DNA of 26,820 nucleotides from a virus. The position numbers and the translations under genes are program-made. Positions 3,770 to 24,079 of this stretch are shown piece after piece (position 1 is the stretch's first letter; each line of letters opens with the position of its first letter). Under the pieces are notes generated by a model. It saw only the letters and a program-made list of their open reading frames with translations, did no database searches and had not been told where the DNA came from. The stretch is from positions 1 through 26,820 of the IMG/VR virus record IMGVR_UViG_3300028925_008888; one strand, 5' to 3'.

Positions 3770-3789
3770 TACTGTACATTAATACAGTA
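3770..3789. promoter_or_regulatory. LexA (SOS) box 1, upstream of lysis-Q operon
   Basis: TACTGTACATTAATACAGTA has a perfect TACTGT/ACAGTA inverted repeat around an AT-rich 8-base centre. It matches the gammaproteobacterial LexA consensus (TACTGT-N8-ACAGTA) at all twelve conserved positions. It sits 60 bases before the lysis cassette in the only real gap between the early and lysis genes. No convincing -35 is visible. TAATAC and TACAGT inside the box are possible -10 elements, which would let LexA block polymerase. The operator match is clear; binding is inferred. Confidence 0.8.
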
Positions 3790-3848: not shown

Positions 3849-4319
3849 ATGGCAAAGAATTCTTCCTGGGGAGGTAACGAAAGACGGTCAGAAAGTGACT
3901 ACGACAGGCTATTTGAGCTGATCGAAAAAGGCAACAAAGAGTGCAAGCAAGGGCAAGAATCGATAAATCTCAAGCTTACTGAGACGAACACAAACATGGC
4001 TCATATTCAAGAGGGGTTTAGGGACTTAAAACATTTAGGTTCTGCGAATCAAATACTGTTAGCTAAACATGATGTGAGGATTGCCGAAGCCGAAGATGAC
4101 AACGCAAGTCAGTATAAAATGATCGGAGAGGATCGCAAAGTGTTGAACAGCTTGAAGATTAAACCTCAATCAAAACAGGCAAATCCGTTGGTTGAGGTAG
4201 TGACATCTAACAACTTTGTATATGTGCTGGGTTTGGCTGGATTTGCACTGATGCTGGTGGCGCTTGGTTTACTTACGTCTGATGAGATAAAGGCGATTGG
4301 TGAGCTGTCAGGGCAATGA
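3849..4319 (+). CDS. Coiled-coil protein with C-terminal membrane helix (lysis cassette)
   Basis: The 156-residue product has a charged, coiled-coil-like N-terminal two-thirds (YDRLFELIEKGNKECKQ onward, then NTNMAHIQEGFRDL). One hydrophobic helix follows near residues 123-143 (FVYVLGLAGFALMLVALG), then a short tail. The architecture resembles XhlA-type or antiholin-like proteins found beside phage holins, but no family can be named with certainty. It is first in a three-gene block with a DUF5675 protein and a three-helix holin, with four-base overlaps between them, so a role in lysis timing or membrane anchoring is likely. The start has only a weak ribosome binding site (GAAG very close). Confidence 0.7.
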   Translation: MAKNSSWGGNERRSESDYDRLFELIEKGNKECKQGQESINLKLTETNTNMAHIQEGFRDLKHLGSANQILLAKHDVRIAEAEDDNASQYKMIGEDRKVLNSLKIKPQSKQANPLVEVVTSNNFVYVLGLAGFALMLVALGLLTSDEIKAIGELSGQ

Positions 4320-4711
4320 TCGAGCTAACGCGCTTTTACTCGTGCAACGACAGGACGATAGGGAGACTTCAATATGAGGGGGCAACGTATTACACGATTG
4401 AGCGTCCTTGGCAAGACAATATCCCTTTTAAGAGTTGCGTTCCGACAGGCGAGTACGATCTGGTCAGGCACGATTCGCCCAGGTTTGGGCCGGACTGCTG
4501 GATGGTGTCAGGTGTTGATGATCGGAGCTACATTCTGTTTCATGTTGCTAATACTGAGCGCAACGTGGTGGGCTGCATTGGTCTTGGAATGGCTCTATAT
4601 CCAACTCTCACGGGTGTTTCACAAAGCCGAGTCGCAATGGGTGAATTTCACAAACAGACGCAGGGGCTAGCCACGGAGCGGCTTGTCATTACGGAGGACG
4701 TTATCAGGTGA
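4316..4711 (+). CDS. DUF5675 family protein, candidate lysis-cassette cell-wall enzyme
   Basis: The 131-residue product shows the DUF5675 pattern: an N-terminal ERPWQDN segment, then SCVPTGEYDL, then RSYILFHVANTERNVVGCIGLG. The last block pairs a histidine (H106 region) with an asparagine and a GCI cysteine. This looks like the H...GC(I/V) catalytic arrangement of YkuD-type L,D-transpeptidases. DUF5675 has no settled function to my knowledge, so enzymatic activity is inference. The gene lies between a membrane protein and a holin, exactly where an endolysin would sit, and no other lysozyme-like gene is visible in the window. The ATGA overlap with the preceding gene sets the start. Confidence 0.78.
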   Translation: MIELTRFYSCNDRTIGRLQYEGATYYTIERPWQDNIPFKSCVPTGEYDLVRHDSPRFGPDCWMVSGVDDRSYILFHVANTERNVVGCIGLGMALYPTLTGVSQSRVAMGEFHKQTQGLATERLVITEDVIR

Positions 4712-5085
4712 GTTTGTCTGCGGTGTTGAATCTAGGCGGTAAAGTGCTTGATAAGTTTGTCCAGGATAAGGACTTGGCGCAAAAGCTAAAATCAGAGATG
4801 ACACTGGCTGCGATCAATGGTGAGCTGAAAGAGCTAGAGGCTCAAGTGTCGATTATTACGACAGAGGCGCAGGGTAATTGGCTACAACGTAGCTGGCGAC
4901 CGCTAACGATGGTCTGGTTCAGTGTCTTGCTGGGTATGTATTGGTTCGGGTTCGCACCTGATTATTTGATTGACAACCCGCAGACTGTTGACCATCTCTT
5001 TGACCTGTTAAAGCTAGGCATCGGTGGTTATGTATTAGGTAGAAGTGTTGAGAAAACAGCCGAGGTTTATTCAAGGGGAAAGTGA
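4708..5085 (+). CDS. Holin, three-transmembrane (GTA-holin-like) family
   Basis: The 125-residue product has the layout of the 3TM holin family (GTA_holin_3TM). It has an N-terminal amphipathic helical region (KLKSEMTLAAINGELKELE), then the family hallmark NWLQRSWRPLTM. Two clear hydrophobic helices follow (about residues 67-85, VWFSVLLGMYWFGFAPD; and 103-114, LLKLGIGGYVLG), and the tail is charged. Holins accumulate in the inner membrane and open it at lysis time. The GTG start is within the end of the DUF5675 gene (four-base overlap). It is followed at once by the Q-like gene with a shared SD region (AAGGGGA in its last codons). Confidence 0.85.
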   Translation: MSLSAVLNLGGKVLDKFVQDKDLAQKLKSEMTLAAINGELKELEAQVSIITTEAQGNWLQRSWRPLTMVWFSVLLGMYWFGFAPDYLIDNPQTVDHLFDLLKLGIGGYVLGRSVEKTAEVYSRGK

Positions 5086-5475
5086 TTGGATTTGAAACCA
5101 GAATTAGAAATGTGGGGCGAACGTCAGTTATATAATATAGCGGATAGAACGAGATCACATCCGTTAGACGGAGATTTAGCGGTCGCTGTCGGTGGCAAAT
5201 CAACTAAAGCTACTACGATCCATGCAAGAGAAACCCCGCCGCCCCGTGAGACAAAAGTGCCTGAGCTTGGAGCACGTTTTGCAATTGATGGCGAGATGTC
5301 CCGGCTCAAGGAAGAGCATCCCCAAATATTTTCTCATTTCGAGGTGGAGTACAAGGAAGGTTGGGACAATGTATTGCGCCAGCTACAACGTGAACACGCA
5401 GATGCAATATTTCGGGGGCAAGAAATCATCAAGTCAAAACGTCGAGCAAATAATATGCAATTAATTGACAAATAA
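5086..5475 (+). CDS. Putative late antiterminator (Q-like), sigma-region-4-like C-terminus
   Basis: The 129-residue product starts at TTG, supported by AAGGGGA seven bases upstream; no ATG of comparable context exists. The N-terminus has LKPELEMWGERQ, similar to the (L)xxWGxW opening of Q-type antiterminators. The C-terminal half begins RFAIDGEMSRLKEEHP and continues EYKEGWDNVLRQLQ with a basic helical end. That follows the spacing of the helix-turn-helix, sigma-4-like domain of phage antitermination Q proteins, though a clean HTH glycine turn is not obvious. Position is the stronger clue: four bases after its stop comes a promoter, with a terminator about 75 bases beyond that promoter's -35, just as lambda Q abuts pR'-tR'. 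Without a profile search this remains a hypothesis. Confidence 0.45.
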   Translation: MDLKPELEMWGERQLYNIADRTRSHPLDGDLAVAVGGKSTKATTIHARETPPPRETKVPELGARFAIDGEMSRLKEEHPQIFSHFEVEYKEGWDNVLRQLQREHADAIFRGQEIIKSKRRANNMQLIDK

Positions 5476-5478
5476 AGC

Positions 5479-5507
5479 TTGACAAATATACTGTATAGAT
5501 ATACAGT
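5479..5507 (+). promoter_or_regulatory. Sigma-70 promoter for late genes
   Basis: A perfect -35 TTGACA (5479-5484) is followed by a 17-base spacer and TACAGT (5502-5507) as the -10 (four of six consensus positions). The start point would be near 5514. The -10 lies inside LexA box 2. The promoter faces the virion operon. Confidence 0.72.
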
Positions 5508-5508
5508 A
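5489..5508. promoter_or_regulatory. LexA (SOS) box 2, overlapping the late promoter
   Basis: TACTGTATAGATATACAGTA has all twelve conserved LexA positions and a TA-rich centre close to the E. coli consensus. It covers the spacer and the -10 of the promoter at 5479, the standard geometry for LexA repression by promoter occlusion. Two independent boxes of this quality 1.7 kb apart are very unlikely by chance in 27 kb. Confidence 0.88.
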
Positions 5509-5553
5509 ATTGAATCCTTCAAGCACTACGCCTAAAGGAAAGTAAAACTAACA

Positions 5554-5754: not shown

Positions 5755-6075
5755 ATGCAGGTTATGCAACCTTTTCTTGCAGGCAGCAACCCAATTAATG
5801 CGTTCAACGAACTCGACGCGACGATCAAAAATAACACGGTTACTAGTGCAGAGAATATGGCTGTGCCGTCTGGTGCTAAAGTATGTCTGTTGATATCTGA
5901 CGCTGACGTTTGGTATAGCTGCGCTGGCACAGCCGCAGTCCCAACAGATGATTCCGGCTCAAGTAGTTATCTGCCGGCTGACACAGAAATAGGTTTGGCG
6001 GTTGAGACTGTGTCTGCAATAAATCTGATTTCTGTGTCTGGTACGGCGCACGTTGCAGGGCGTTTCTGGAGATGA
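5755..6075 (+). CDS. Small beta-rich virion-associated protein (106 aa)
   Basis: AAAGGA seven bases upstream supports the ATG. The product has many short strand-like segments rich in Ser, Thr, Ala and Val. Examples are SGAKVCLLISDADVWYSC and, at the end, INLISVSGTAHVAGRFWR. This resembles small phage head-decoration or head-fibre proteins, but no named family is recognised. It is the first gene of the late operon and overlaps the next gene by four bases (ATGA). A structural role is inferred from context. Confidence 0.6.
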   Translation: MQVMQPFLAGSNPINAFNELDATIKNNTVTSAENMAVPSGAKVCLLISDADVWYSCAGTAAVPTDDSGSSSYLPADTEIGLAVETVSAINLISVSGTAHVAGRFWR

Positions 6076-6493: not shown

Positions 6494-6752
6494 AAAAGAC
6501 GCGCTCAGAGAGCAGTTGCAAGCGCAGGGTCACGTTCAGCATGTCGTTGATATATTACATCTGCTTGGCGATCCAAACGCTGTTTTAGAGGAAGAGATGC
6601 TAGAACGCTACAAGGTGGTATTAAATGCCAAGTTTAAGCTAATTAGTAAGTATCTAGGTGATGATAAATCAATCGAAGTCACGGGAGATCCAGAGTCGCC
6701 ATTGTTGACAGGAATAGCCATTGAGTTCATTGGTAACAACACAGATACCTGA
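6456..6752 (+). CDS. Terminase small subunit (putative)
   Basis: The 98-residue product is mostly helical: MAATRAQLNRKVRKDALREQL, a second helix with HVQHVVDILHLL, and LEEEMLERYKVVLNAKFKLISKYLGD. It ends in a flexible tail before TerL. Small terminases recognise the packaging site and form a ring that feeds DNA to the large subunit. Identification rests on size, helix content, the KFKLISKYL...V.GDPE ending typical of these proteins, and the 32-base overlap with the large subunit. AAGGGC precedes the ATG. It is shorter than P22 gp3 (162 residues), so the recognition domain probably differs. Confidence 0.68.
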   Translation: MAATRAQLNRKVRKDALREQLQAQGHVQHVVDILHLLGDPNAVLEEEMLERYKVVLNAKFKLISKYLGDDKSIEVTGDPESPLLTGIAIEFIGNNTDT

Positions 6753-7971
6753 AGTCTTTCGGCCCCTGTTTGAGCCGCATCGGTACAAAGTTTATTGGGG
6801 TGGTCGAGGCGGCGCTAAATCCTGGGCCTTTGCAGATGCTTTGCTCATACAGGCTGCACAACGACCGCTGCGGATTCTCTGCGCTAGAGAGATGCAGAGA
6901 TCAATCAAGGACTCTGTTCACTCTTTGTTGAAGGATAGGATTAACGCATTAAGTCTGTCTGGTCATTATGAGGTATTGCAGAACGAGATAAGAGGCGGCA
7001 ACGGATCATCAATAATTTTTGCTGGCCTATGGTCAAATCCTGAGTCCTTGAAGTCTGTTGAAGGCGTTGACATCTGCTGGATCGAAGAGGCTAACACGGT
7101 CAGCGAGTCGAGTTGGTCAACACTGATCCCAACGATCCGAAAGAAAGGCTCAGAGATATGGGTAAGTTTTAACCCTAAGTTGAAGACTGATCCAGCCTAT
7201 CGACGCTTTGTCTTGAATCCACCTGAAGGCGCAGTTGTCAAGAAGGTCTCATGGCGTGATAACCCTTGGCTAACGGATGTGCTGATCTCTGAGATGGAAC
7301 ACTTGAAAACAAGCGATTACGATGAGTATCAACACGTATGGGAAGGCGAACTGAAGAATTTTGCTGACGGTGCTATTTATGCCAATCAGTTGAAGTCAGC
7401 TAGAGACCAGGGGCGTATTACGAAAGTGCCGATTGAGTCTGTGCCTGTCCATACGTTTTGGGATTTGGGAAGAAACGACTCCACAGCAATATGGTTTATG
7501 CAACGCATAGGCTTGCAGAATCGGTTCATTGATTACTATGAACATCGGTTAGTCGATCTTGATCACTACGCCAAAATCCTCAAGGACAAGGGTTACCTCT
7601 ATGGTGAGCATTACTTGCCACATGACGTTGAAGTCATTGTCCTAGGTGCAAGTAATCGATCCAGAAAGGTCATGTTAGAGGATATGGGCGTTTCACCGAT
7701 CGAAGTAGTGCCAAGAATAGCCAATTTGAACGAAGGCATCGAGGCAACCCGACAATCCTTTGCAAGCTGTTGGTTTGATGAGGATCGGTGTGAACAAGGC
7801 TTATCAGCATTAGCTAACTATCAGTATGTGTTCGACGAAAAGTTTGACACATTCCGACAAGTACCACTTCATAACTGGGCATCCAACGGTGCTGATGCGT
7901 TCAGACAGTTCGCGCAAGGCTTCACAGCAGACGATAAACATAAACCAATAGAATTCAAAACAGAATGGTAA
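6721..7971 (+). CDS. terL: Terminase large subunit (PBSX/Terminase_3 type)
   Basis: The 416-residue product has both enzyme domains. The N-terminal ATPase has Walker A GGRGGAKS (27-34), Walker B VDICWIEEA (116-124, glutamate pair as catalytic carboxylate) and coupling motif WVSFNP (147-152). The C-terminal RNase H-like nuclease shows FWDLGRNDSTA (D248), PHDVE (D302) and NGADAFRQ (D392). It is the motor that packages DNA into proheads and cuts concatemers. The start is TTG with AGGA seven bases upstream; no ATG lies before the Walker A region, so a rare start codon is forced. The gene overlaps the small subunit upstream and the portal downstream by seven bases. Confidence 0.95.
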   Translation: MSSLVTTQIPEVFRPLFEPHRYKVYWGGRGGAKSWAFADALLIQAAQRPLRILCAREMQRSIKDSVHSLLKDRINALSLSGHYEVLQNEIRGGNGSSIIFAGLWSNPESLKSVEGVDICWIEEANTVSESSWSTLIPTIRKKGSEIWVSFNPKLKTDPAYRRFVLNPPEGAVVKKVSWRDNPWLTDVLISEMEHLKTSDYDEYQHVWEGELKNFADGAIYANQLKSARDQGRITKVPIESVPVHTFWDLGRNDSTAIWFMQRIGLQNRFIDYYEHRLVDLDHYAKILKDKGYLYGEHYLPHDVEVIVLGASNRSRKVMLEDMGVSPIEVVPRIANLNEGIEATRQSFASCWFDEDRCEQGLSALANYQYVFDEKFDTFRQVPLHNWASNGADAFRQFAQGFTADDKHKPIEFKTEW

Positions 7972-9911
7972 GAAAGCCTAAGCAGCGAGATACGATTATT
8001 ACTGAAGCCCTTGAGCGATTTGATCGTTCTGAATCAGCCGAGCATCACAACCGTGAAATGTGGCTAGAAGACATGCGTTTTGTTCACGATGAAGATTCGC
8101 AATGGACTCAGGAATCGAAGGATAAACGTAAGGGCCGCCCATGTATGACCTTTGACAAGGTGTCGCAAGCGATTGACTCCATGATTGGTGATCAGCTTAT
8201 CAACTCGCCATCCATCAAAATACGTGGCTTTGAAGACGATGATGCCGACACGGCGGAGATATACACGGGCTTGATACGCTCAATTCTAAATAAGCAAGAA
8301 GCCGACAGAGCGCAGAAGACAGCCTATAAACACGCTGTAACAGGTGGTTTCGGGGTCATGCGAATCCTTAACGATTACGCCGATGATGAGTGTTTCGATC
8401 AAGACATCATGTTGAAGGCGGTTGAAAACCCATGTTCTGTTTACTGGGATGCAGATGCAAAGTTAGTGACGAAAGAGGACGGTATGTTCTTCTTTATTGT
8501 TGACGATATGCCAAAGGCCGAGTTTGAACGTGCTTACCCAAAAGCCTCCGTCACGCAATCAGACAAATTTTCAGGTGTGGGTGATAGCAGCCAATGGTTC
8601 GGCAAAGATAACATCCGAGTAGCAGAGTATTTTCGCAAAGTGCCAAAGAAGCGCACCATCTATCAATTGGCTGATGGTTCTGTTGTTGACGAACCGCCGG
8701 AACTCGATCCAATGGGTCAAGTTCCTGAATTTAGAGCAAGAGAAGTTGACGGATTCAAGATTGAGATATTCAAAATCACTGGCTCAGAAGTCCTGGAAGA
8801 AAGTGAATGGACGGGTAAGTATCTGCCGATTGTTCCGGTCTTTGGCAAGGTTATTAATATCAACGGTGAGTTCAAATATCGTGGAGCTGTCAGAAAAGCG
8901 AAAGACGCGCAGCGAACATACAACATGGAACGATCGAATTACATTGAGACAGTGGCGCTACAGCCTAAACAACCTTACTTAGTCACAGGTGCAATGCTCA
9001 AGGGCCATGAGAAGCAATGGTCAGAGATGAATACCTCTAATCGACCAGCTCTTACCTACAACTTAGATCAAGGCATGAGGCCCACAAGAGAATCGCCGCA
9101 GATGGCACCACAGGGCTTGCTAACGGGTCTACAGATATCCTCCGACGACATTAAGTCAGCGACAGGTAAATATGATGCTTCGCTAGGCGCACGATCCAAT
9201 GAAACGTCCGGTGTTGCCATACAAGCTCGAAAAGCTGAAGGCGATGTTGGGTCTTATGAATACATTGATGAGCTTGTTAGCGCCCTGGAATACGCCGGTC
9301 GCATCATGATAGATCTTATTCCAAAAATCTATGATACGCAGCGACAGATTCGTATTTTAGGCGATGACGATAGCGAAAAAGTCATGCAAATCAATAAAGC
9401 TAAACGTGACCTAATCACAGGTGAAATCGTTACTCAAAACGATCTAAGTCGCGGCAAGTATGACGTTGTGGTTGATACGGGTGCCTCATACGCAACTAAG
9501 CGCATCGAGACAGCATCTCAGTTAAGCGCGGTCATGGCTCAGAACCCACAATTAGGCATGCTTGGCGCTGACATGTGGGCTAAGTCGCTCGATTTGGTTG
9601 GTGCTGATGAGTTCATCAAGCGTGTTAGAGCAATGTTAATCAAGCAGGGTATTGCAAAACCGACAGAGGAAGAGCAAGCCGAGATGCCGCAGCCAAATCA
9701 GCAGCAAGTGCAGATGCAACAAGCTCACATGCAGTTAGAAATGGCAGCGAAAGAAGCCGATATCAAAGAAACTAACTCTAAAGCAGATCTAAATTCTGCT
9801 AAGGCGATGATGGAACAGGCTGAGATGAGCGTAATAGCCGGTGAACAAGCGCAATTAAAACAGCAGGTTCAGCAGTTAGCAGCAGCACTACAAAGCATGC
9901 AGCCTCTTTAA
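7965..9911 (+). CDS. Portal protein, P22 gp1-like
   Basis: The 648-residue product opens with the features of P22-type portals. These are an N-terminal helical wing with ERFDRSESAEHHNREMWLED, SQAIDSMIGDQLINSP and NKQEADRAQKTAYKHAVTGGF, followed by SSDDIKSATGKYDASLGARSNETSGVAIQ, the conserved NExSG stem-tunnel region. The C-terminal 80 residues are Gln/Ala/Met-rich helix (from about residue 560), resembling a short barrel or tail. P22 gp1 has 725 residues, so the barrel is shorter here. Twelve copies form the vertex through which DNA enters and leaves. A terminator follows the gene. Confidence 0.93.
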   Translation: MVRKPKQRDTIITEALERFDRSESAEHHNREMWLEDMRFVHDEDSQWTQESKDKRKGRPCMTFDKVSQAIDSMIGDQLINSPSIKIRGFEDDDADTAEIYTGLIRSILNKQEADRAQKTAYKHAVTGGFGVMRILNDYADDECFDQDIMLKAVENPCSVYWDADAKLVTKEDGMFFFIVDDMPKAEFERAYPKASVTQSDKFSGVGDSSQWFGKDNIRVAEYFRKVPKKRTIYQLADGSVVDEPPELDPMGQVPEFRAREVDGFKIEIFKITGSEVLEESEWTGKYLPIVPVFGKVININGEFKYRGAVRKAKDAQRTYNMERSNYIETVALQPKQPYLVTGAMLKGHEKQWSEMNTSNRPALTYNLDQGMRPTRESPQMAPQGLLTGLQISSDDIKSATGKYDASLGARSNETSGVAIQARKAEGDVGSYEYIDELVSALEYAGRIMIDLIPKIYDTQRQIRILGDDDSEKVMQINKAKRDLITGEIVTQNDLSRGKYDVVVDTGASYATKRIETASQLSAVMAQNPQLGMLGADMWAKSLDLVGADEFIKRVRAMLIKQGIAKPTEEEQAEMPQPNQQQVQMQQAHMQLEMAAKEADIKETNSKADLNSAKAMMEQAEMSVIAGEQAQLKQQVQQLAAALQSMQPL

Positions 9912-9943
9912 CTCGTTCAATAAACGCATTTAAGTAAAACCCT

Positions 9944-9967
9944 AAGCCGCTTAATTGCGGTTTTTTT
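9944..9967 (+). terminator. Intrinsic terminator between portal and scaffold genes
   Basis: GCCGC (9946-9950) pairs with GCGGT (9957-9961) over a TTAATT loop, with AA upstream facing a T7 run. It stands inside the virion operon and may attenuate upstream terminase/portal message relative to scaffold and coat, or mark a separate downstream transcription unit. The stem is short, so efficiency may be partial. Confidence 0.7.
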
Positions 9968-9974
9968 ATGCCTA

Positions 9975-9992
9975 CTCGTTGGCTCTAACGAG
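9975..9992 (+). promoter_or_regulatory. Hairpin in the scaffold gene leader
   Basis: CTCGTT (9975-9980) pairs perfectly with AACGAG (9987-9992) over a six-base loop, ten bases before the scaffold SD (GGAG, 10003-10006). It could protect the 5-prime end of the scaffold-coat message or tune translation. No promoter is evident between this hairpin and the terminator. Confidence 0.4.
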
Positions 9993-10016
9993 GAACAATC
10001 GTGGAGAACGATACTC

Positions 10017-10865
10017 ATGTCAGATGAAGAAGCAACCGAAGTAGTGGTTGAGGATACTCCTGTATCTACGGAAGGTGGATCAGCCGTTGAAGAGATCACA
10101 CAAGAAGCCAATGCTGAACAGGCAGAGGTATCCGATGAACCGCAAGCGGAATCGGACGGTGAAGATACTACCGAGGATAAAGAGGTCAAACGCAACTCTG
10201 TCCAGAAACGTATTAAACAACTCACATCGCAAAAACGTGAGATGACTGAAAAGCTGGATGCACAAGAACGTATGCTTCAGCAATTCAGGACACAGAACAC
10301 TAACGAGGCACCAATATCACGGCCTAATTTAGAGCAGTTCGATTATGACGAACAACGCTTTAATGCTGCTGTGGATGAATACAATCAGAAGAGTACGCAA
10401 CGCACTATTCACCAAGCGTTAGCCGAGCAACAACGGTTTCAGACAGAAGCAGTACGTCAGGAATCGAATCGGTTAGCGGTTGAGCAGTTCTCAGAGAAAT
10501 CTAATGAATTTGCAATTGAGCATGCTGACTATTTTGAAAAGGTTCAGTCTCCGAATTTCGTCGCGGCGTTTAAGTCTGCTCCGGTGTTGCAAAAAGCAGC
10601 ACTTCAGACAGACAACGCCCCAGCGGTACTGTATCACCTAGCTCAAAACCCTGATTTAGCCCAAGAACTCCGAATGTCAGACGAGTTCACAGCAGCAATG
10701 CAAATAGGCCGTATTTCGGAAAAGCTAGGTTCTCCCGTTCTTGCAAAAACAAACTCAAATGCGCCCACCCCCATTAGGCCCGTAGGCAATACCGCATCGG
10801 TCAATAAAGACCCTAGCGATATGTCACCGGACGAATATGCGCGGCACAGGGGCTATAAAAAATAG
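10017..10865 (+). CDS. Scaffolding protein, P22 gp8-like
   Basis: The 282-residue product, immediately before the coat gene, matches scaffolds in build. It has a very acidic disordered N-terminus (about residues 1-58) and a long helical, Gln/Glu-rich middle (SVQKRIKQLTSQKREM onward, with a coiled-coil pattern). It ends in a short basic C-terminus (YARHRGYKK), corresponding to the helix-turn-helix by which P22 scaffold binds coat. Scaffolds direct prohead assembly and then leave. P22 gp8 has 303 residues. GGAG ten bases upstream fixes the start. Function is inferred from position, length and charge pattern. Confidence 0.85.
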   Translation: MSDEEATEVVVEDTPVSTEGGSAVEEITQEANAEQAEVSDEPQAESDGEDTTEDKEVKRNSVQKRIKQLTSQKREMTEKLDAQERMLQQFRTQNTNEAPISRPNLEQFDYDEQRFNAAVDEYNQKSTQRTIHQALAEQQRFQTEAVRQESNRLAVEQFSEKSNEFAIEHADYFEKVQSPNFVAAFKSAPVLQKAALQTDNAPAVLYHLAQNPDLAQELRMSDEFTAAMQIGRISEKLGSPVLAKTNSNAPTPIRPVGNTASVNKDPSDMSPDEYARHRGYKK

Positions 10866-10884
10866 TTAACAGGAATCCAAAACA

Positions 10885-12078
10885 ATGAGTAATACAATAC
10901 TAACCCCTTCGGTTATTACAAAAGAAGCACTTGCAATACTGCACCAGAAGCTGAACTTCATCGGCAACATCACCACTGAATATGATGATCGTTATGCGAA
11001 AGAAGGCGGCAAGATTGGTAACGATCTGAAGATTCGCCAGCCAAACGAATTTACCGTTCGTTCAGGCGCTGCACTGTCGGCGCAAGACGTTACAGAACAA
11101 GCCGTGACAATGACGGTAGACACGCAAAAAGGAGTCGATATCAATTTTAGCTCAGAAGAGCTAACGCTTCATATTGACGAGTTCAAAGATCGTTATATTG
11201 AACCAGCAATGTCTGTACTGGCTGCCACAATGGAATCAGACGCTTTGACGATGGTCAAAGACGTTTATAACTTTCACGATGGTGTCGGTGCGGGTATGAG
11301 CCTTTCAAATGCTAACTATGGTCGTAAACTTCTGGCGGATAGTTTAGCTCCAACGGGTATGCGATCAATGCTGCATAACACTCAAGGTGTTGTTGATTTT
11401 GTCTCTGATACTAAGGGCAACTTTAACGATCAGTCTGCAATTGCTAAACAATACCGCGAAGGTGCGCTAGGCCGTATCGCTGGCTTTGATCACTTTGAAA
11501 ACACGCTTGTTCCTGGTCACACCACGGGTACAGCAGTTGAAGGTGATACTTCGTACAACATCAACGGCGCGTCTCAGTCTGGGTCAGCAATAACGGTTGA
11601 TGGTGGCTCTACTACCTTCCTCAAAGGCGATATCATTAGCATCGCTGGCGTGTTTCGTGTTCACCCAGAAACTAAGGTGTCTACAGGCGTTTTACAGCAG
11701 TTTGTCATTACTGCTAATTCAGGTACTTCAGCCACAAGTTTAGCTATCTCACCGGCTATATCAGCGGCTGGTGGACGACAAAACGTCAGTGCTGTACCGG
11801 CTGATAACGCAGCGGTTAACAAAGTTGGTGGCGGCGCGAATGCTACGTGGCAAGAAACGTTGGCATTTCAGAAAGGCGCGTTTGCATTCGGTTCAGTTGA
11901 CCTTATCAAGCCTGACGGTGTGCATTTCTGTGCTCGTGAGGTTATGGATGGTCTATCAATGCGGATCATTCGTGACTACACCATCTCTGACGACAAGTTC
12001 CCATGTCGTATTGATGTGATGTACGGCTTTAAAGCCATTCGGCCACAGCTTGCTGCTCGTATCGGAATCAATTCCTAA
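10885..12078 (+). CDS. Major capsid (coat) protein, P22 gp5-like
   Basis: The 397-residue product has the P22 coat arrangement. The N-terminal arm with LTPSVITKEALAILHQKLNF is followed by the HK97 fold. A beta-rich insertion around residues 220-300 (VDGGSTTFLKGDIISIAGV and on to ISPAISAAGG) corresponds to the P22 I-domain. The C-terminal part ends SDDKFPCRIDVMYGFKAIRPQLAARI, a typical P22-coat ending. P22 gp5 has 430 residues. It forms the T=7 shell, which predicts a genome near 40 kb. AGGA stands about ten bases before the ATG. The stop is one base before the next start. Confidence 0.94.
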   Translation: MSNTILTPSVITKEALAILHQKLNFIGNITTEYDDRYAKEGGKIGNDLKIRQPNEFTVRSGAALSAQDVTEQAVTMTVDTQKGVDINFSSEELTLHIDEFKDRYIEPAMSVLAATMESDALTMVKDVYNFHDGVGAGMSLSNANYGRKLLADSLAPTGMRSMLHNTQGVVDFVSDTKGNFNDQSAIAKQYREGALGRIAGFDHFENTLVPGHTTGTAVEGDTSYNINGASQSGSAITVDGGSTTFLKGDIISIAGVFRVHPETKVSTGVLQQFVITANSGTSATSLAISPAISAAGGRQNVSAVPADNAAVNKVGGGANATWQETLAFQKGAFAFGSVDLIKPDGVHFCAREVMDGLSMRIIRDYTISDDKFPCRIDVMYGFKAIRPQLAARIGINS

Positions 12079-12079
12079 T

Positions 12080-12478
12080 ATGGCAACGGCTCAAGACGTT
12101 ATTGACCGCGCAACTTCACTCTTACGGGTGAGGTCTGCGGGTGTCAGTTTTGTGACTGATGATTCTTCAATGAATGGTGAGATATTCGCCATTCTTCAGA
12201 ATCTAATTGCTGAGTGGGCGGAGAGTGGAACGTTATCCATTCCCGCTCCTTCAGCGGCTACTGCAACGCTCGATGTCAGTGACGGTACGATTCGCGGGTT
12301 AGCTTATGGCCTTGCGATTGATGCTGCCTCTGCTTTCGGGCGTTCAGTAACACCAGAAGTTGTGATGGTTGCCTCAGAAACAAAAGACCAATTAGAGGCA
12401 AACAACGCAATCGAAATTTCAATCACGCATGAGCCTTTTTTAACCAGCTCATCGCGTTATAACGTGAACAGCGACTGA
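12080..12478 (+). CDS. Head-completion / tail accessory factor, P22 gp4-like
   Basis: The 132-residue product has the order and features of P22 gp4. MATAQDVIDRATSLLRV is followed by SMNGEIFAILQNLIAEWAE, where the alternating helices bind below the portal, and then a connecting segment with IRGLAYGLAIDAASAFG. It is shorter than gp4 (166 residues), whose C-terminal extension carries muralytic activity. The start at 12080 is used because it lies one base past the coat stop; an upstream in-frame ATG would run into the coat gene. gp4 is the first factor added after packaging. Confidence 0.9.
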   Translation: MATAQDVIDRATSLLRVRSAGVSFVTDDSSMNGEIFAILQNLIAEWAESGTLSIPAPSAATATLDVSDGTIRGLAYGLAIDAASAFGRSVTPEVVMVASETKDQLEANNAIEISITHEPFLTSSSRYNVNSD

Positions 12479-13878
12479 TGATTACACCTTTACCGCTTGA
12501 CACTAACTATCAGTCAACCCGTCTGCCGTCTGAATCACAGACGACCCTGAACTTGTTCCCTCACACAGGAAACGGATATAGACCATTCCCTGGGTTAAAG
12601 GTGTTCTCGCGATTTAACGCGCAGATTGAGGCGCTGGATGCGGCAGATGGCGGCTTGAATGCGGCTGATGGAACGCTTTTTACGGCGTATATAGCGGGTG
12701 GCAATGATCGCGGTCAAGCGTTAATGAGAGATGCGCTCTACGTGGTATCTGGGCCATCGTTGTTCAAAGTTGAGTCAGCGGGTAGCGGCTCATTCATTGG
12801 CGTAATAGAGGGGACAGTTCCTGTCACGATGGCGACCAATGGCACTCAGCTCATCATTGCTGCGGGTACTTACAAATATGTTTATACACTTGCTAATGGT
12901 CTTCAGGCAATTACTGATAGTGATTTAGATGATGCATATACCGTAGCCTATTTAGACTCACGCTTTATTTATGATCAGCCAGACGGTGAATTTGTCGCCT
13001 CTGACTTAAACGATGGAACGTCGATTGATCCGTTATATTTTGCGGAAGCCGAAGCCTTTCCAGACAATATATTAGCTGTTTATCCACTAAATCAGTTGAT
13101 TTACATGCTAGGTGAGACATCAACAGAGGTCTGGTATACATCCGGTGTTGGTGTGCCTCCATTAGATCGCCAGGCAGTGCTAGAGCATGGGCTAATGAGT
13201 CGGTATGCAGTGGACTCAATAGACGACAGTTTATATTTTGTTGACCATCACAGAAGGCCGGCAGTGGTCGAAGGCGCTCAATACTCTCCGCTGATTCTAT
13301 CAGGCTCGATGGCGGCTACTTGGGATGGATATCCCGAATCAGCAATGGACACAGTGAGGGTTGCTTGTTACTCGCACGAGCTTGAGAATTTCATTGATTT
13401 CATTTTTCCAAAAGTTGACAAGGTTTGGACATTTCACGAGCCTTCACGACAATGGTTTGAAAAAAGTCTTACTACATCCTCTGCGATTAGAGCGTTCGGA
13501 ACGACTCTGCTGGCTGGCACTAAGAACGCGACGATGTACGAGCTTGATGGCTTTGTAAATGATGAAGCTGTCGTTGAGCGTACAAAAGACACGGGCCTGA
13601 TTAACGCCGAAACATTTGGTGCTCCTGGTCGATCCATGACACTCAACAGCTTATACATTGCGTATGACGCGCCAAGTGAAGTAACGGTACATGTCTATTT
13701 CTCTAAAGACCTGATTGAATTTAAAAATCCGCGCACATTTACCTTATCGGGAAATGGCAGAAAAAAACTTACTTCCTTTGGCATGTTCAATGAAGGAATT
13801 ATCAGAATCGTAACTTACGCAACGACAAAACTTGATATTTTAAGTGTGTCGGCTGACGTTGAATTTTTGGATGAATAA
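12478..13878 (+). CDS. Packaged-DNA stabilisation protein, P22 gp10-like
   Basis: The 466-residue product nearly equals P22 gp10 (472). The N-terminus (PLPLDTNYQSTRLPSESQTT, LNLFPHTGNGYRPFPGLKVF) and the repeated beta-propeller-like strands (e.g. RGQALMRDALYVVSGPSLFKV, YMLGETSTEVWYTSG, DDSLYFVDHHRRPAVVEG) are characteristic. The C-terminus is a beta-sandwich-like segment. gp10 plugs the tail hub beneath gp4 and holds packaged DNA in. The ATG overlaps the gp4-like stop by one base (TGATG). Confidence 0.9.
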   Translation: MITPLPLDTNYQSTRLPSESQTTLNLFPHTGNGYRPFPGLKVFSRFNAQIEALDAADGGLNAADGTLFTAYIAGGNDRGQALMRDALYVVSGPSLFKVESAGSGSFIGVIEGTVPVTMATNGTQLIIAAGTYKYVYTLANGLQAITDSDLDDAYTVAYLDSRFIYDQPDGEFVASDLNDGTSIDPLYFAEAEAFPDNILAVYPLNQLIYMLGETSTEVWYTSGVGVPPLDRQAVLEHGLMSRYAVDSIDDSLYFVDHHRRPAVVEGAQYSPLILSGSMAATWDGYPESAMDTVRVACYSHELENFIDFIFPKVDKVWTFHEPSRQWFEKSLTTSSAIRAFGTTLLAGTKNATMYELDGFVNDEAVVERTKDTGLINAETFGAPGRSMTLNSLYIAYDAPSEVTVHVYFSKDLIEFKNPRTFTLSGNGRKKLTSFGMFNEGIIRIVTYATTKLDILSVSADVEFLDE

Positions 13879-13882: not shown

Positions 13883-16800
13883 ATGACAACTACACTTTCG
13901 CAAACAGGTAGTGAAATCCAGGTTGATTTGAATGCTGTCGAGGATGGCAATATAGGCTTAACCTCGATCACTGATCTATCAGACACCACAGTAACAGCAG
14001 CCAAAAAATCGGGCTATCATTCACTGCAAGCATCATCCTCAAACGCGCCATCATCGGATAGATCGGTCATTATTTCAGCGGTGCGAAATACCGCTGCGTC
14101 AGGACAATTACGATACGGTCAGGTGGTGTTAACAGAATCTAACAAGCTTTTTTTCAACACAGACGATGGCGGAGTGCTTGGTACTTGGCGGGAGGCGGTA
14201 AGCACGGCGGGAGGTCAAACACTCACGAACAAGACAATTACGGGCGGCGCGTTAAACATCAATACAATCTCTGAGCAGTCGTCGGCCTCTGGCGTAACGA
14301 TTGACAGTGTTTTGTTAAAGGATAATACCGTATTGGCTGGCACGCTAACAGTTGGTGCTGGCTCAATCACGGACAGCTCTGGCGCGATAAACTTCGGTAA
14401 TGAAAATTTAAGCACGACAGGAGCGTTAGCAGGCGGAGCACTAGCGATCAGTGGGAATGTAGATGTAGGCGGGATCATAGAATTTGACGCTATATCAGGC
14501 ACCGGCGCAGTAACGATAACGGATATTGTTGATGAAGATAACATGGCTAGTGACAGCCCCACAAAACTAGCAACTCAACAATCTATTAAAGCCTATGTAG
14601 ACGCGCAAGTAGATACTGCTGATACTCTTTCGGAAGTTCTTGCCCTTGGTAATACCACTGGCGGGACGGACATCGCCACAACCACAACTGACAAGGTCCA
14701 ATTCCGAGATTCGGCCATATATATTCATAGCTCGACGGACGGACAGCTCGATATAGTAAGTGATGGAGAAGTACAGATTGCAAGCAATGTCGATCTTAAT
14801 GGTAATTTGGATGTCAGCGGCACTGCATTAGTTACAGGCGTTCTAACCACAACAGCTACGCAAGTAGCAACGGGTGGAATTACAAGTGGTTCAAATATTG
14901 TTTCAGACACAGACAGCACAGACGATCTTGGTACAACCAGTGTTCGTTGGGCTAACTTGTTTGTTGATGGTATTACTGCAACTGATCAAATAACAGCTAC
15001 TGGATTTACAGGAACACTAGACGGTATTCTTGGATCTGGTGCCGCTGCTGCTGCAACTGTAACAACCCTTGATACAAGTGGTGCAGTTAACTTAAATCTT
15101 GTTACTGACTCAAGTAGCTCAACTTCAGGTGCTTTGATTGTTGACGGTGGTGTTGGTATAGCTAAAAAGTTGTACGTTGGCACAGACCTAGACGTAGATG
15201 GCACTGCAAACCTAGACATTGTTGATATTGATGGCGCCGTGAACATGGCGACCACTGCACTGGTCACAGGTGTTTTAACCACGACAGCGACACAGGTAGC
15301 AACGGGTGGAATCACCAGTGGCGCAGACATTATTAGTGATACAGACAGTACAGATAGCCTGGGGTCTACGGCGGTCAGATGGCTAAAGGGTTGGTTCGAT
15401 ACGTTAACAGCAGGAACGCTGACGATTGGTTCAGGCAGTGTCACAGATAGTTCTGGCGCCATTAGTTTTGGCAATGAAAACCTTACTACTACAGGAACAG
15501 CCACAGCCGCTAGTTTAGCACTTGCTACAGGCGCGACTGTCACAGGGGTTGATAACGGCACCCTCGGTACAAGTGCTACGCTGTTAGCGACACAAGGGGC
15601 GATTAAAACCTACGTTGATGCTCAAGTAGACACTGCGGACACGTTGGCAGAAGTTCTCGCCCTCGGAAATACTACTGGCGGCACAGACCTCGCTGTATCC
15701 GCAGGCGATGACATTACGTTTACAGACTCAAGCAAGGCCATCTTCGGCGCTGGTAGCGACCTACAGATTTACCATGATGGTAGTAACAGTTGGGTCAGCG
15801 ACCAAGGCACTGGTCAGTTAATTTTAGAATCTGGCGGTGCTGGCGTTTACATCCAAAAAGGCGCGTCGGAAACGATGGCAAACTTTATCGCTGACGGTGC
15901 AGTTTCGCTTTACCATAATAATGTAAAGAAAATTGAAACCACCGCCCTTGGAATTTCGGTAGCAGGTGCAGCTACTTTTAATGCAGGTGCAGTCTTTAAC
16001 GAAAGCAGTATAGACTCTGACTTCCGCGTTGAATCAAACGGCAACGCTAACATGCTGTTTGTGGACGGTGGGAGTGACCACGTAAACATTGGTACGGCTT
16101 CCGATTATGGCGGTATGTTTAATGTAAATGGCAAAATGGTAGTTAAGGCTCTTGATGGCGCGTTAGCAAATGATTTTATCGCGACATTTCAGAACGGAGA
16201 AGAAACCAATTCTCAAAGTTTTGGAGTTTCTATTGCCGCAGCGTCTACTGGCAGTGATATTGCTTTAAATGTAGTTGACCATGATGCTAGTAATGTTTTG
16301 CTAAGAGTATTTGGAAACGGTGCAACCACCATTGGCGGTAGTGTGACCGCTACGGGAGCAACATTAAGTGGAGATTTAAACCTTGATGTTGCGGCATCTC
16401 CGTCTATAGTCTTGGTTGGTGGGGATGGTAACTCCAAAAATATCTTCTTTAAAAAGCAAACTGGTGATACTGAAGAAGCTAGAATAAAAGTATTGTCTAA
16501 TAATATGATCCTCGACGTTAAAGGAGAAATACATCTTGATGCTGATGATGGCGTTATTCGTGTGCAGGACGCCGCTGGCGATATAGGTATGTTCCAGATG
16601 ACGAATAGTGATTTTATTATTCGCTCAATGGTTTCTGATAAAGACATAATTTTTAAAGGTCTGGATGGTTCTAGTGTCATCAGCGCCTTAACTTTGGATA
16701 TGAGCGATTTCGGGAGCGCGGCATTTAATGCGGCTGTTGATGTTGGTACCACTCTGACAGCACAAAAGCTCGTATTAACAAATGGTGTTGCTGGTCAGGG

Positions 16801-17257
16801 TAACGCAAATCTGAAATTTTCTAACTCTGCTGATGCGATCACGCCCGCAAATAGTTCAGGTTCAAACAACGACAACGCTATAGATTTAGGCGCAAGCTCT
16901 GCTCGTTTTGACGACATCTATGCCACAAACGCCACTATCCAGACATCTGACCGAAACGAGAAGCAAGACATTGCAGAGCTTTCTGACGCAGAGCAACGTG
17001 TAGCCGTAGCTTGTAAAGGCTTACTGCGTAAGTTCCGCTGGAAATCTTCAGTAGCAGAAAAAGGTGACAAAGCTCGTACACACTTTGGAATCATAGCCCA
17101 AGACTTAGAGGCTGCATTTGTTGCTGAAGGCTTAGACGCAAGTGACTACGCAATGTTTATAAACACCGCGTGGACTGACGAAGAAACTAGCGAAGAAAAG
17201 ATTAGGATGGGTGTTCGCTACAGTGAGCTACTCGCCTTCATAATTTCAGCAATTTAA
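13883..17257 (+). CDS. Tail fibre with C-terminal S74 intramolecular chaperone
   Basis: The 1124-residue product is a long beta-rich fibre. An N-terminal adaptor region (residues 1-110, ending LTNKTITGGALNINTI, the usual shaft start) leads into repeated shaft blocks. Repeats include TADTLxEVLALGNTTGGTD and TGVLTTTATQVATGGITSG. A receptor-facing part follows, and the last 105 residues are a peptidase S74 domain. That domain has the catalytic dyad S1022-x4-K1027 (TSDRNEK), then HFGIIAQDLEAAF and an RYSELLAFIISAI ending. Domains of this kind trimerise the fibre and then cut themselves off. The fibre replaces the P22 tailspike and lies where needle gp26 would be. The blocks are typical of marine phage fibres. 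Confidence 0.92.
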   Translation: MTTTLSQTGSEIQVDLNAVEDGNIGLTSITDLSDTTVTAAKKSGYHSLQASSSNAPSSDRSVIISAVRNTAASGQLRYGQVVLTESNKLFFNTDDGGVLGTWREAVSTAGGQTLTNKTITGGALNINTISEQSSASGVTIDSVLLKDNTVLAGTLTVGAGSITDSSGAINFGNENLSTTGALAGGALAISGNVDVGGIIEFDAISGTGAVTITDIVDEDNMASDSPTKLATQQSIKAYVDAQVDTADTLSEVLALGNTTGGTDIATTTTDKVQFRDSAIYIHSSTDGQLDIVSDGEVQIASNVDLNGNLDVSGTALVTGVLTTTATQVATGGITSGSNIVSDTDSTDDLGTTSVRWANLFVDGITATDQITATGFTGTLDGILGSGAAAAATVTTLDTSGAVNLNLVTDSSSSTSGALIVDGGVGIAKKLYVGTDLDVDGTANLDIVDIDGAVNMATTALVTGVLTTTATQVATGGITSGADIISDTDSTDSLGSTAVRWLKGWFDTLTAGTLTIGSGSVTDSSGAISFGNENLTTTGTATAASLALATGATVTGVDNGTLGTSATLLATQGAIKTYVDAQVDTADTLAEVLALGNTTGGTDLAVSAGDDITFTDSSKAIFGAGSDLQIYHDGSNSWVSDQGTGQLILESGGAGVYIQKGASETMANFIADGAVSLYHNNVKKIETTALGISVAGAATFNAGAVFNESSIDSDFRVESNGNANMLFVDGGSDHVNIGTASDYGGMFNVNGKMVVKALDGALANDFIATFQNGEETNSQSFGVSIAAASTGSDIALNVVDHDASNVLLRVFGNGATTIGGSVTATGATLSGDLNLDVAASPSIVLVGGDGNSKNIFFKKQTGDTEEARIKVLSNNMILDVKGEIHLDADDGVIRVQDAAGDIGMFQMTNSDFIIRSMVSDKDIIFKGLDGSSVISALTLDMSDFGSAAFNAAVDVGTTLTAQKLVLTNGVAGQGNANLKFSNSADAITPANSSGSNNDNAIDLGASSARFDDIYATNATIQTSDRNEKQDIAELSDAEQRVAVACKGLLRKFRWKSSVAEKGDKARTHFGIIAQDLEAAFVAEGLDASDYAMFINTAWTDEETSEEKIRMGVRYSELLAFIISAI
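14573..14671 (+). repeat. Fibre shaft repeat, block B (second copy 15590-15688)
   Basis: Both copies are 99 bases and in frame, encoding a TQxxIKxYVDAQVDTADTLxEV core and ending in an LGNTTGGTD stretch. Most base differences are at third codon positions, so this is an old duplication under protein selection. Block B precedes the C block in the first array and follows it in the second. Confidence 0.85.
14822..14950 (+). repeat. Fibre shaft repeat, block C (second copy 15255-15383)
   Basis: Two 129-base in-frame copies encode TALVTGVLTTTATQVATGG, then ITSG and a DSTDxLGxTxVRW end. Differences are mostly synonymous. Together with block B and a shorter ITDSSGAI/FGNENL block (near 14365 and 15440), they make the shaft a shuffled array. 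Such arrays are prone to recombination and length change. Confidence 0.85.
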
Positions 17258-17273
17258 CTAGGGCAATAAAATA

Positions 17274-17630
17274 ATGGCTATAAACACAACCTGGTCAGTG
17301 ACCGACATGACTCACGTGGATTCTGACGGTGGCGTGATTAAATCGTATTGGAATTGTGTCGCTTCGAGCGATGGAACCCCATCTTACACTGCCTCAGAAG
17401 GCGGCAAGCTACTTTGCACCTATGACGCATCCGCATCAGATTTTATTGGTTTTGCAGACCTGTCTCAAGCTGACGTTTTGGGATGGATTTGGACTAGCTT
17501 AATTGAAGGCGAAGAAACAGCAGCAGAAGCTAAAGCACGTATTGAAGCTAATCGTACTTCTAGAGTCCAGGGTCAGATTGATCGCGCAGCAACTCAAGCC
17601 ACGGGATTACCTTGGGCAACAACACCTTAA
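17274..17630 (+). CDS. DUF7936-like virion protein (118 aa)
   Basis: The product has the compact pattern of the DUF7936 family common in marine phages. It opens TTWSVTDMTHVDSDGGVIKS, with a single tryptophan strand (YWNC) and a central TASEGGKLLCTYDASASDF. The helical end has ADVLGWIWTSLIEGEETAAEAKA. It lies directly after the fibre gene in a run of small late genes, so it is probably a minor virion or tail-tip protein. Function is unknown in the family as far as I know. The start ATG has no strong SD (GGGCAATAAAATA region). Confidence 0.65.
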   Translation: MAINTTWSVTDMTHVDSDGGVIKSYWNCVASSDGTPSYTASEGGKLLCTYDASASDFIGFADLSQADVLGWIWTSLIEGEETAAEAKARIEANRTSRVQGQIDRAATQATGLPWATTP

Positions 17631-17659
17631 TAACTTACTAAATAAAAGGAATATTAATA

Positions 17660-17881
17660 ATGGCAAAAAACGAAAACAAAACCATTACTGTCAATGGTGT
17701 AGAACACAACATTGAAGACCTAACCGAGCAACAAATTGCAATGGTTAACCACATTGCTGATCTGGATAAGAAGCTAGGAAGCCTTGGCTTTAACATGGAT
17801 CAGCTAAAAGTAGGCCGCGAGGCTTTTGGCAATATGCTCCATGCTTCTCTTGCCGAAACAGACAATATCGAAGAGCAATAA
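17660..17881 (+). CDS. DUF6447-like small protein (73 aa)
   Basis: AAAGGA about ten bases upstream supports the ATG. The product has a short beta-hairpin start (KTITVNGVEHNIEDLTE) and then a single long amphipathic helix (QQIAMVNHIADLDKKLGSL). A second helix with VGREAFGNMLHASLAE follows. This is the plan of DUF6447, a small family found in late phage operons after fibre genes. It probably oligomerises by its coiled coil. No function is established to my knowledge. Confidence 0.65.
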   Translation: MAKNENKTITVNGVEHNIEDLTEQQIAMVNHIADLDKKLGSLGFNMDQLKVGREAFGNMLHASLAETDNIEEQ

Positions 17882-17892
17882 GGAAAATAAAA

Positions 17893-18054
17893 ATGGAATA
17901 TTTACAACAGCTTTACGTTGTCGCTACTTCGCTCGTGACTATTGCGAGTATTATTTGCAATTACACAGAGACCCCAAAAGATGATCAGTTTTTGGCTAGA
18001 ATTTACACTGTGCTAGAACGATTTGCTTTCCTCAAAAATAAAGCTAAGAGATAG
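17893..18054 (+). CDS. Small membrane protein (53 aa), late operon
   Basis: AAGGAA nine bases upstream and a 12-base gap from the previous stop support an ATG at 17893. The product has one hydrophobic helix (about residues 7-24, LYVVATSLVTIASIICNY). It is followed by a TPKDDQFLARIYTVLERFAF segment and a basic end (KNKAKR). Small phage membrane proteins with a helix followed by a TP-K-D-x...Y-x-V-x-E tail occur in many late operons, but no function is settled. It may be a lysis accessory or an exclusion protein. Confidence 0.65.
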   Translation: MEYLQQLYVVATSLVTIASIICNYTETPKDDQFLARIYTVLERFAFLKNKAKR

Positions 18055-18056
18055 GG

Positions 18057-18434
18057 ATGAAGCATCCAAATGCAATGCCTAGGCTGGCGCAAGCCGGATT
18101 TTACCAGTTTTTAAAAGAGCTGCTAGGCGAAGCATACAAAAGCTACTCGTTTTTTGACTCAAGGCAGACCGGGAATTATACATTCAGCGCGAGGGTGGGA
18201 CATGAGTTATGCAACTTCAATGGCACATCTGCACAGATAGCCTACCTCCCGGTTAACCCGATCCCTGGACAGACCTACACTGTTATTCGTGAAAATTCAG
18301 GCGCGGTGACGATTAACGGTAATTCAAAAACCATTAACGGCGCCTCAACGCTGTCGTTAGCAACAAAAGGAGACGCTTTTACTTTGATTTATTCGTCAGT
18401 TGGAGAGCATAAAATCATTGGGAAGGTGACATAA
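18057..18434 (+). CDS. Beta-rich minor virion protein (125 aa)
   Basis: The ATG follows the previous stop by two bases. A helical N-terminus (PRLAQAGFYQFLKELLGEAY) is followed by strand-turn repeats: INPIPGQTYTVI-like, SGAVTINGNSKTINGAS and TLIYSSVGEHKIIGKV. The last third resembles the C-terminal tips of phage fibre proteins (GDAFTLIYSS...HKIIG). It could be a short tip, tail-associated or head-fibre protein. The position just before the ejection genes fits a virion component. No family is recognised. Confidence 0.6.
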   Translation: MKHPNAMPRLAQAGFYQFLKELLGEAYKSYSFFDSRQTGNYTFSARVGHELCNFNGTSAQIAYLPVNPIPGQTYTVIRENSGAVTINGNSKTINGASTLSLATKGDAFTLIYSSVGEHKIIGKVT

Positions 18435-20783: not shown

Positions 20784-21781
20784 GCAGTGAATTATCACAA
20801 ATGATATTGGCGAATGGCTTTGACCTTAAACAAAACATTAAAGATCAGCGTAACGCCGATTCTAATGAACAGCTTGCACAGGTTCTCAAGCAAAGTCAGA
20901 TCAATCAGCGTGACGCGCAGGCAGACTACTACAACAAGCAGGCGCGTGGGCAAAGCCTTCAGAATACGAAACTTGCGACAGACATGTCGCGAGGGCCACA
21001 GAATACGTTTAAACAAGTGCAAGGCAACGATAACAACTTGTATCAAGTTGAGTTAAATTCGCAAGGCAATGTGGTGAACTCTACGCTTATACCGGGTATG
21101 GGTACTGCGCCTAAAAAGCCGCTGACTGCGCTACAAGAAAAGATGTCTCTTGCGTCAGGTATAGATTACGGCAACATGACGCAAGAGCAGAAAACAGAAG
21201 CCTACAAATTGGTAACCGGCCCAAAAGCACCAACCAAATTGCAAGAAATACAGCTTTCAAATGCACAAATAAAAAATAACGATCTTAGAAATCCGGCCCC
21301 AAAGCCGAATCTACAACAAACAGAGACGTTAAAAGCTAATACGAAGCGATTGAGTCAGTTAGGTAGTGATCAGGGCGAACGTTCTAACAACATATCTATA
21401 GCGAAAGATTTCCTAGACGGATTCCAGAATGAAGGGGCCAATAGCGGGACAACACGCACCGTGGCCTCGTTCCTGCCCGGTGTATTTACTGATCAAGGCG
21501 AATTCGATCAGAAGCTAGACGCATTCGCTGAGAAAGCCGCACGAGCTTCGTTGAAGGCGAATGGCGATGTCCGGCCCACTGATGCTGACGTTGATGGCGC
21601 TAAGGCTGCGTTGTTTGGTATTGGTAAGGATGAGCCTGTCAATATTGAATTGCTTGAAAACTTTATAAGTTCACAAGAGCTTCTTGATGATGAGTTTGCC
21701 GCATTAAAGGGAGCCGCAAAAGATAATTCAATAGGCGACTTTGTATATGGTGGCGTTGGCGGCTGGAGTATTGACCCATGA
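20780..21781 (+). CDS. Ejection/internal virion protein (gp20-like position)
   Basis: The 333-residue product is largely helical and polar, with Gln/Asn/Lys-rich N-terminal helices (NSNEQLAQVLKQSQINQRDAQ-like). Its C-terminus has a feature common in phage internal virion proteins: KLDAFAEKAARASLKANGDV, RPTDADVDGAKAALFGIG and EPVNIELLENFI. It starts by ATGA overlap with the glycine-rich protein and ends by overlap with the next. The three-gene order agrees with P22 genes 7-20-16, whose products form the ejectosome. Exact correspondence to gp20 is inferred from position. Confidence 0.72.
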   Translation: MSSELSQMILANGFDLKQNIKDQRNADSNEQLAQVLKQSQINQRDAQADYYNKQARGQSLQNTKLATDMSRGPQNTFKQVQGNDNNLYQVELNSQGNVVNSTLIPGMGTAPKKPLTALQEKMSLASGIDYGNMTQEQKTEAYKLVTGPKAPTKLQEIQLSNAQIKNNDLRNPAPKPNLQQTETLKANTKRLSQLGSDQGERSNNISIAKDFLDGFQNEGANSGTTRTVASFLPGVFTDQGEFDQKLDAFAEKAARASLKANGDVRPTDADVDGAKAALFGIGKDEPVNIELLENFISSQELLDDEFAALKGAAKDNSIGDFVYGGVGGWSIDP

Positions 21782-23940: not shown

Positions 23941-23957
23941 CGGGGAATATACAGTAC
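23941..23957 (+). repeat. Integrase arm-type site, left of core
   Basis: CGGGGAATATACAGTAC is repeated exactly at 24148-24164 on the other side of the tRNA core. Same-orientation repeats on both arms of attP are the usual arm-type binding sites of tyrosine integrases. This assignment is from position and repeat structure. Confidence 0.6.
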
Positions 23958-24029
23958 CCAAATCAGTGCTTTTTCACTGAAAGTATTCCACGAAATCGCC
24001 TAAAAGCCTTGGTACGCCTACATAGACCT

Positions 24030-24079
24030 CCGGATTGTGATTCCGGTGGTCGCGGGTTCAAGCCCCGTCGCTCACCCCA
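24030..24079 (+). other. attP core: 3-prime half of tRNA-His
   Basis: The segment reads as the anticodon arm (CCGGA-TTGTGAT-TCCGG, anticodon GTG at 24037-24039), variable loop, T arm (GCGGG-TTCAAGC-CCCGT) and acceptor strand CGCTCAC-C-CCA of tRNA-His. The D arm and 5-prime acceptor strand are absent: the upstream bases do not pair with CGCTCAC. Phages that integrate into tRNA genes carry just this half so that the host gene is restored. The neighbouring integrase agrees. If the sequence were from an integrated prophage, this would be the phage-side junction instead; a full gene would then be expected next to it. Confidence 0.9.

Follow-up and report, generated by a model that had tools for sequence, protein, structure and literature searches.

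In the best-known temperate phages, the SOS response acts on the early switch, by repressor cleavage or through an antirepressor, and the late genes follow via Q; the late promoter pR' of lambda is not under LexA control. Direct control by LexA ties SOS to prophage induction in the case of tum of coliphage 186, the antirepressors of Salmonella prophages, and rstA of CTX-phi. Among open-licence papers, the only example we found of LexA acting on phage late promoters is GIL01, a tectivirus of Bacillus thuringiensis, in which host LexA represses the capsid and lysis promoter P3 at dinBox2 and dinBox3, two high-affinity boxes, and P3 additionally needs gp6, made from the LexA-controlled promoter P1; gp6 is a LexA homologue that acts at the -35, and gp7 is a LexA co-factor (PMC6182141). 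In the Bacillus prophage SP-beta, SOS boxes lie ahead of yolC/yolD, yopS/yopT, and yorB, among others, and the prophage is not induced by loss of LexA alone (PMC8270828). An earlier note on the DNA studied here had described LexA on the late promoter of a P22-like phage as unusual, which is right only in part, P3 of GIL01 being a precedent.

We analyzed a virus record of 26,820 bases (the whole of it termed the window) from a P22-like temperate phage, with family searches of its gene content. The plus strand encodes the end of a helicase, NinB, NinG, a metallophosphoesterase, and a lysis cassette (DUF5675 protein, holin), along with terminase, portal, scaffold, head protein, head closure, tail fibre, and ejection genes; integrase, HNH endonuclease, SSB, and YqaJ are on the minus strand. 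A search of Rfam gave zero matches. The relevant features are as follows.

3770..3789, unstranded: LexA box 1, TACTGTACATTAATACAGTA; perfect 12-base core; PWM 24.5 bits
3849..4319, plus: g3849, 156 aa, first gene after box 1; hydrophobic C-terminal stretch, read from the translation
4316..4711, plus: DUF5675 protein, candidate lysis-cassette member (PF18925, phrog_1501)
4708..5085, plus: holin (phrog_3427 lysis; PF11351 3-TM holin)
5086..5475, plus: g5086, probable diverged Q-like antiterminator (via phrog_79 matches of relatives; hhalign)
5465..5492, plus: promoter P-late-1, TTGACA 5465-5470, N16, TATACT 5487-5492; 11/12 sigma-70 match
5479..5507, plus: promoter P-late-2, TTGACA 5479-5484, N17, TACAGT 5502-5507; 10/12 match
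5489..5508, unstranded: LexA box 2, TACTGTATAGATATACAGTA; 19/20 to consensus; PWM 27.2 bits
5553..5578, plus: intrinsic-terminator-like hairpin and U tract at the position of lambda tR'; -13.8 kcal/mol
5755..6075, plus: first ORF of the late (virion) operon, without family match
6721..7971, plus: terminase large subunit (phrog_3717, phrog_2)
7965..13878, plus: portal, scaffold, major head protein, adaptor, head closure, in P22-like order
13883..23631, plus: tail fibre/spike and ejection-type genes
24028..24079, plus: attP core, the 3' part of tRNA-His from anticodon GTG to CCA (from the sequence)
24167..25165, minus: tyrosine integrase (PF00589, phrog_1)

Within a 782-aa ejection-type gene, ACAGTA occurs three times at 19557-19611 with a spacing of exactly 24 bases, probably as a short in-frame tandem repeat.

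Two LexA-type boxes

The earlier note had reported a consensus LexA box over the -10 of a late promoter, and the site was confirmed: box 2 at 5489-5508 differs from TACTGTATATATATACAGTA by one mismatch in 20 bases, and none of the shuffled sequences matched TACTGTATATATATACAGTA as well. It had overlooked, however, that this box is not alone, since a perfect box (box 1) precedes the lysis/Q operon. Both are perfect in the 12 core bases of the CTGT-N8-ACAG-type palindrome, the SOS box of gamma- and betaproteobacteria, and the two perfect TACTGT-N8-ACAGTA sites compare with 0.0011 expected per window (Markov-1). In order to score the boxes, a PWM was built from ten SOS sites of MG1655 (lexA x2, ssb, uvrA, recA, umuD, sulA, recN x2, and dinI). 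On this matrix, box 2 scored 27.2 bits and box 1 24.5 bits; the E. coli sites themselves scored 13.5-25.8 bits when left out one at a time, and box 2 outscores all ten. The third-best site of the window, at 26481 inside the YqaJ gene (13.9 bits), was put down to chance. Box 1 is two substitutions away from the E. coli sulA box and lies 59 bases before g3849, and the heads of both late transcription units are each occupied by one box.

Late promoters, terminator, and flanking genes

The promoter described previously (TTGACA, a 17-base spacer, and TACAGT) is present as P-late-2, with its -10 contained in the right arm of box 2, but a better one had been missed. P-late-1 is the sole sigma-70 match of at least 11/12 on either strand of the window; it starts within the final codons of g5086, and its -10 runs into the left arm of box 2. 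The -10 hexamers of both overlapping promoters are covered by box 2, so the GIL01 P3-type feature, a virion-operon promoter overlapped by a LexA-type operator, is present.

Between these promoters and the first virion gene, 60-80 nt past the promoter, the hairpin at 5553-5578 (z about -4.5 to -5 on folding) would end a short leader without an ORF, and the late leader as a whole is unusually structured (z -5.3). The locus also has the lambda-type feature of an intrinsic terminator soon after the promoter and ahead of the late genes. Read from the sequence, the order of Q-like gene, promoter, terminator, and virion operon is the Q-pR'-tR' plan of lambda, with the lysis genes upstream of the Q-like gene in this phage.

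g5086 is probably a diverged Q-like antiterminator. It gave no direct family match itself, but can be aligned at 15-28% identity with the gene that relatives have in the same place, before their late operon (hhalign against this gene family, prob 80, E 1.4e-5), and two of the relatives' genes match phrog_79, "anti-termination protein Q-like" (2.6e-6 and 0.007). A structure search with its AlphaFold model was dropped, the model being too poor (pLDDT 47). At the other end of this operon, the promoter scan of the window found no good sigma-70 match at box 1, the weak one there being TGGAAA-N16-TACAGT (8/12), and promoter action at this box is putative. Family searches with g3849 gave no significant match. 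No antirepressor family was matched by the genes first behind either box (g3849, DUF5675, and holin; the virion genes), and no GIL01-type LexA homologue (gp6) or co-factor (gp7) was found among the scanned ORFs, the early region being mostly outside the contigs.

Of the early control region, which is mostly missing from the contigs, some is provided by a second sibling contig, L124, which runs 2.5 kb beyond the right end of the window. It encodes a 180-aa putative regulator (L124:165-707, minus strand) adjoining the left early operon, with a probable helix-turn-helix N-terminus and coiled-coil C-terminus, no significant family match, and no sign of a LexA-like peptidase domain; a structure search with its AlphaFold model was dropped for poor model quality. 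No LexA box occurs near this gene. Upstream of the left early operon, two ACTATAGT palindromes, a motif unlike the boxes, flank a TTGACA (L124:1075-1106) and are candidate operators of the phage's own repressor. If the 180-aa protein were that repressor, it would not be cleavable through RecA and the use of LexA would be explained, although this is speculation.

Relatives, other phages, and the likely host

Only two contigs carry the boxes, the window and its sibling L004, which are 98% identical. Both boxes are unchanged in L004 (0 of 40 bases), with 0 changes in the 44-base promoter/box against 9 in the 246-base leader; at so small a divergence, these counts say nothing firm about selection on the boxes. 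Contigs with a 61-68% identical terminase, including a 31.9 kb record, show no such box, and many of them have a Q-like gene before the late operon. The conservation that the earlier note asked of close relatives sharing the gene order therefore extends to the sibling but not to these contigs, and on present evidence the boxes are lineage-specific. In two of the relatives, L008 and L010, the late genes are preceded by a TATAAG promoter and a strong terminator. No repeated palindromes were found in relatives at the two equivalent places, and other bacterial LexA motif types gave, by inspection, scattered matches with none recurring at the late promoter. In L007 and L016-L018, a conserved GTTAAC palindrome follows Q, but it was rejected as a repeated operator, as it occurs once per locus. 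A conserved element around GTCGTTAAC(C/T)(G/A)GTTAACGCAACT is found in L007:2302, L009:23, L015:2466, L016:2511, L017:1222, and L018:1104, in some relatives directly after the Q-like gene.

Wider searches returned little that is close. GTDB genomes contained no prophage copy of this phage (best terminase matches 52%, Methylobacterium), INPHARED phage records gave only short terminase matches (60-80%), and integrase, g5086, and g3849 each retrieved one contig as a close relative. The holin retrieved the sibling plus mostly unrelated phages, the nearest being L084, an otherwise different phage with the same DUF5675-holin pair (L084:905-1670; 49% and 75%) and no LexA box near it; this lysis pair may move between phages as a module. 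Another sibling contig (98-99% elsewhere) has at L075:2626 a 65% homologue of window gene g21778 between portal and scaffold, an order that differs from that of the window.

In order to see the company this motif keeps in other phages, IMG/VR was scanned with TACTGTA-N6-TACAGTA, which gave at least 120 stretches. Among the matches listed, umuD lies behind the motif in 14 of 120 and dinI in 6 of 120, and all 14 umuD-like and 6 dinI-like genes within 2.5 kb start at most 400 nt downstream of the box, indicating that the motif marks SOS genes in phages. With an upstream TTGACA added, 26 IMG/VR contigs match; several carry umuD or dinI downstream, and the box was followed by identifiable terminase and virion genes only in this phage's sibling (ORFs of the 26 judged by eye, partly annotated). 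A T7-like contig has the same perfect motif at L293:2916-2935, in a long ORF-free stretch about 570 bases upstream of leftward terminase genes; it was rejected as a second late-promoter case, a chance match being likely given the size of the scan.

The sequence beside the integrase, a 3' part of tRNA-His ending in C-CCA (24028-24079), is as expected of attP. Allowing up to 3 mismatches, it matched tRNA-His in 1 of 369 genomes of the class and in 1 of 391 genomes of the order containing Psychrobacter; in the family of the matching genome in the latter order, 9 of 121 genomes were within 2 mismatches, five of them within 1. The attP block has at most 1 mismatch in 50 to tRNA-His genes of this one gammaproteobacterial family, a member of which is the likely host, the attP match being the sole basis for this assignment. 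Repeats of GGGGAATA at 23942, 24128, 24140, and 24149 flank the attP core and resemble integrase arm-type sites. With the sequence GGGGAATATACAGTA, two of these repeats contain a LexA half-site.

All six examined genomes of this family encode LexA, 61-64% identical to that of E. coli. TACTGT-N8-ACAGTA occurs 1-6 times in each, including before recA, imuA, and dnaE2, and two of the six have CTGT-N8-ACAG upstream of lexA. One site in these genomes, TACTGTACATTTATACAGTA, is a single base away from box 1. The earlier identification of the motif as a LexA operator is thus upheld by its sequence, by its umuD and dinI company in phages, and by the recA, imuA, dnaE2, and lexA sites in the likely host family.

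Proposed regulation and comparison with known systems

We consider it probable that the Q/lysis operon and the late promoter are both targets of repression by host LexA, and that the late genes need SOS and Q together. In the lysogen, LexA at box 1 would block production of Q, and LexA at box 2 would block the late promoter itself. Cleavage of LexA driven by RecA would free both boxes and allow Q to be made, and Q would let polymerase from the late promoter pass the terminator into the virion genes. With box 1 before the lysis/Q operon and box 2 at the late promoter, LexA would act by two routes, feeding forward onto the same output. DNA damage itself would then probably help to switch on particle production. 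The earlier proposal that damage releases the late genes through LexA is retained insofar as a LexA-type operator sits on a real-looking virion promoter, but it had overlooked the terminator. Given a terminator behind the promoter and a Q-like gene ahead of it, removing LexA by itself would probably yield a short leader RNA, and Q would be required as well.

The same terminator is what recommends another, unlikely, reading, that host LexA binds the boxes while box 2 drives only a short SOS-induced leader RNA ending at 5553-5578, the virion genes being read mainly from further upstream and LexA tuning timing or making a small RNA. The strong hairpin and U tract so soon after the promoter, the ORF-free leader, and the weak tie of g5086 to Q fit this reading, but a promoter and terminator right behind a Q-like gene are the standard pR'-tR' layout, found also in L008 and L010. 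It is quite unlikely that the boxes are instead operators of a phage repressor or LexA homologue with LexA-like specificity, encoded in the unseen early region and serving immunity rather than direct SOS control. Phage repressors also bind palindromes, the GIL01 LexA homologue gp6 acts at its late promoter, and the early control region is largely absent from the contigs; the motif nevertheless coincides with the LexA motif of the likely host family, which has a site almost the same as box 1, while the putative regulator of L124 has no nearby box and the putative early operators are a different repeat. That the boxes are functionless chance palindromes is very improbable: their conservation stops at one near-identical sibling, but two sites were observed where about a thousandth of one was expected, both head late units, and one sits on the best promoter of the window.

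Returning to repression of both units by host LexA, a broader interpretation is possible, though held more tentatively: this tailed P22-like phage may have moved damage sensing to host LexA at the late step, possibly since RecA does not cleave its early repressor. By silencing the Q/lysis operon together with the Q-dependent late promoter, LexA would build a coherent feed-forward AND gate with SOS and Q as inputs. Particle production would then depend on SOS persisting, and the prophage would have a checkpoint against short-lived damage. It speaks against LexA repression of the late units that LexA would be present in a normal infection too: completing a lytic cycle would call for SOS induction, LexA titration, or leakiness, and how this is achieved in an undamaged cell would be a puzzle.

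Several known systems share parts of this arrangement. Like SP-beta, this temperate phage has more than one LexA-type box within its genome. In 186, the Salmonella prophages, and CTX-phi, LexA acts on an antirepressor or on early or replication genes, whereas the boxes described here are on late units. As in lambda, a Q-like gene directly precedes a strong promoter, after which come an intrinsic terminator and the late genes; unlike in lambda, a LexA box takes in both -10s, and the lysis genes are upstream of Q rather than downstream of pR'. With GIL01 P3 the phage shares a LexA-type operator within the virion promoter and, as proposed, a phage activator under LexA control, which would here, too, delay the SOS switch and give it two routes. 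GIL01, however, is a tectivirus whose Gram-positive host has another LexA motif (dinBoxes), and its activator is gp6, whereas this phage is P22-like, with an integrase, a gammaproteobacterial motif, and, as its likely activator, a Q-type antiterminator. If the proposal is right, the same late gate of LexA plus activator would have arisen in two phage groups that are unrelated, one with Gram-positive and the other with Gram-negative hosts. In summary, the regulatory logic is already known from GIL01, while the phage type, the LexA motif, the probable antitermination step, and the operon layout differ; what is new is the prediction of a tailed phage whose Q-type late promoter is gated by LexA.
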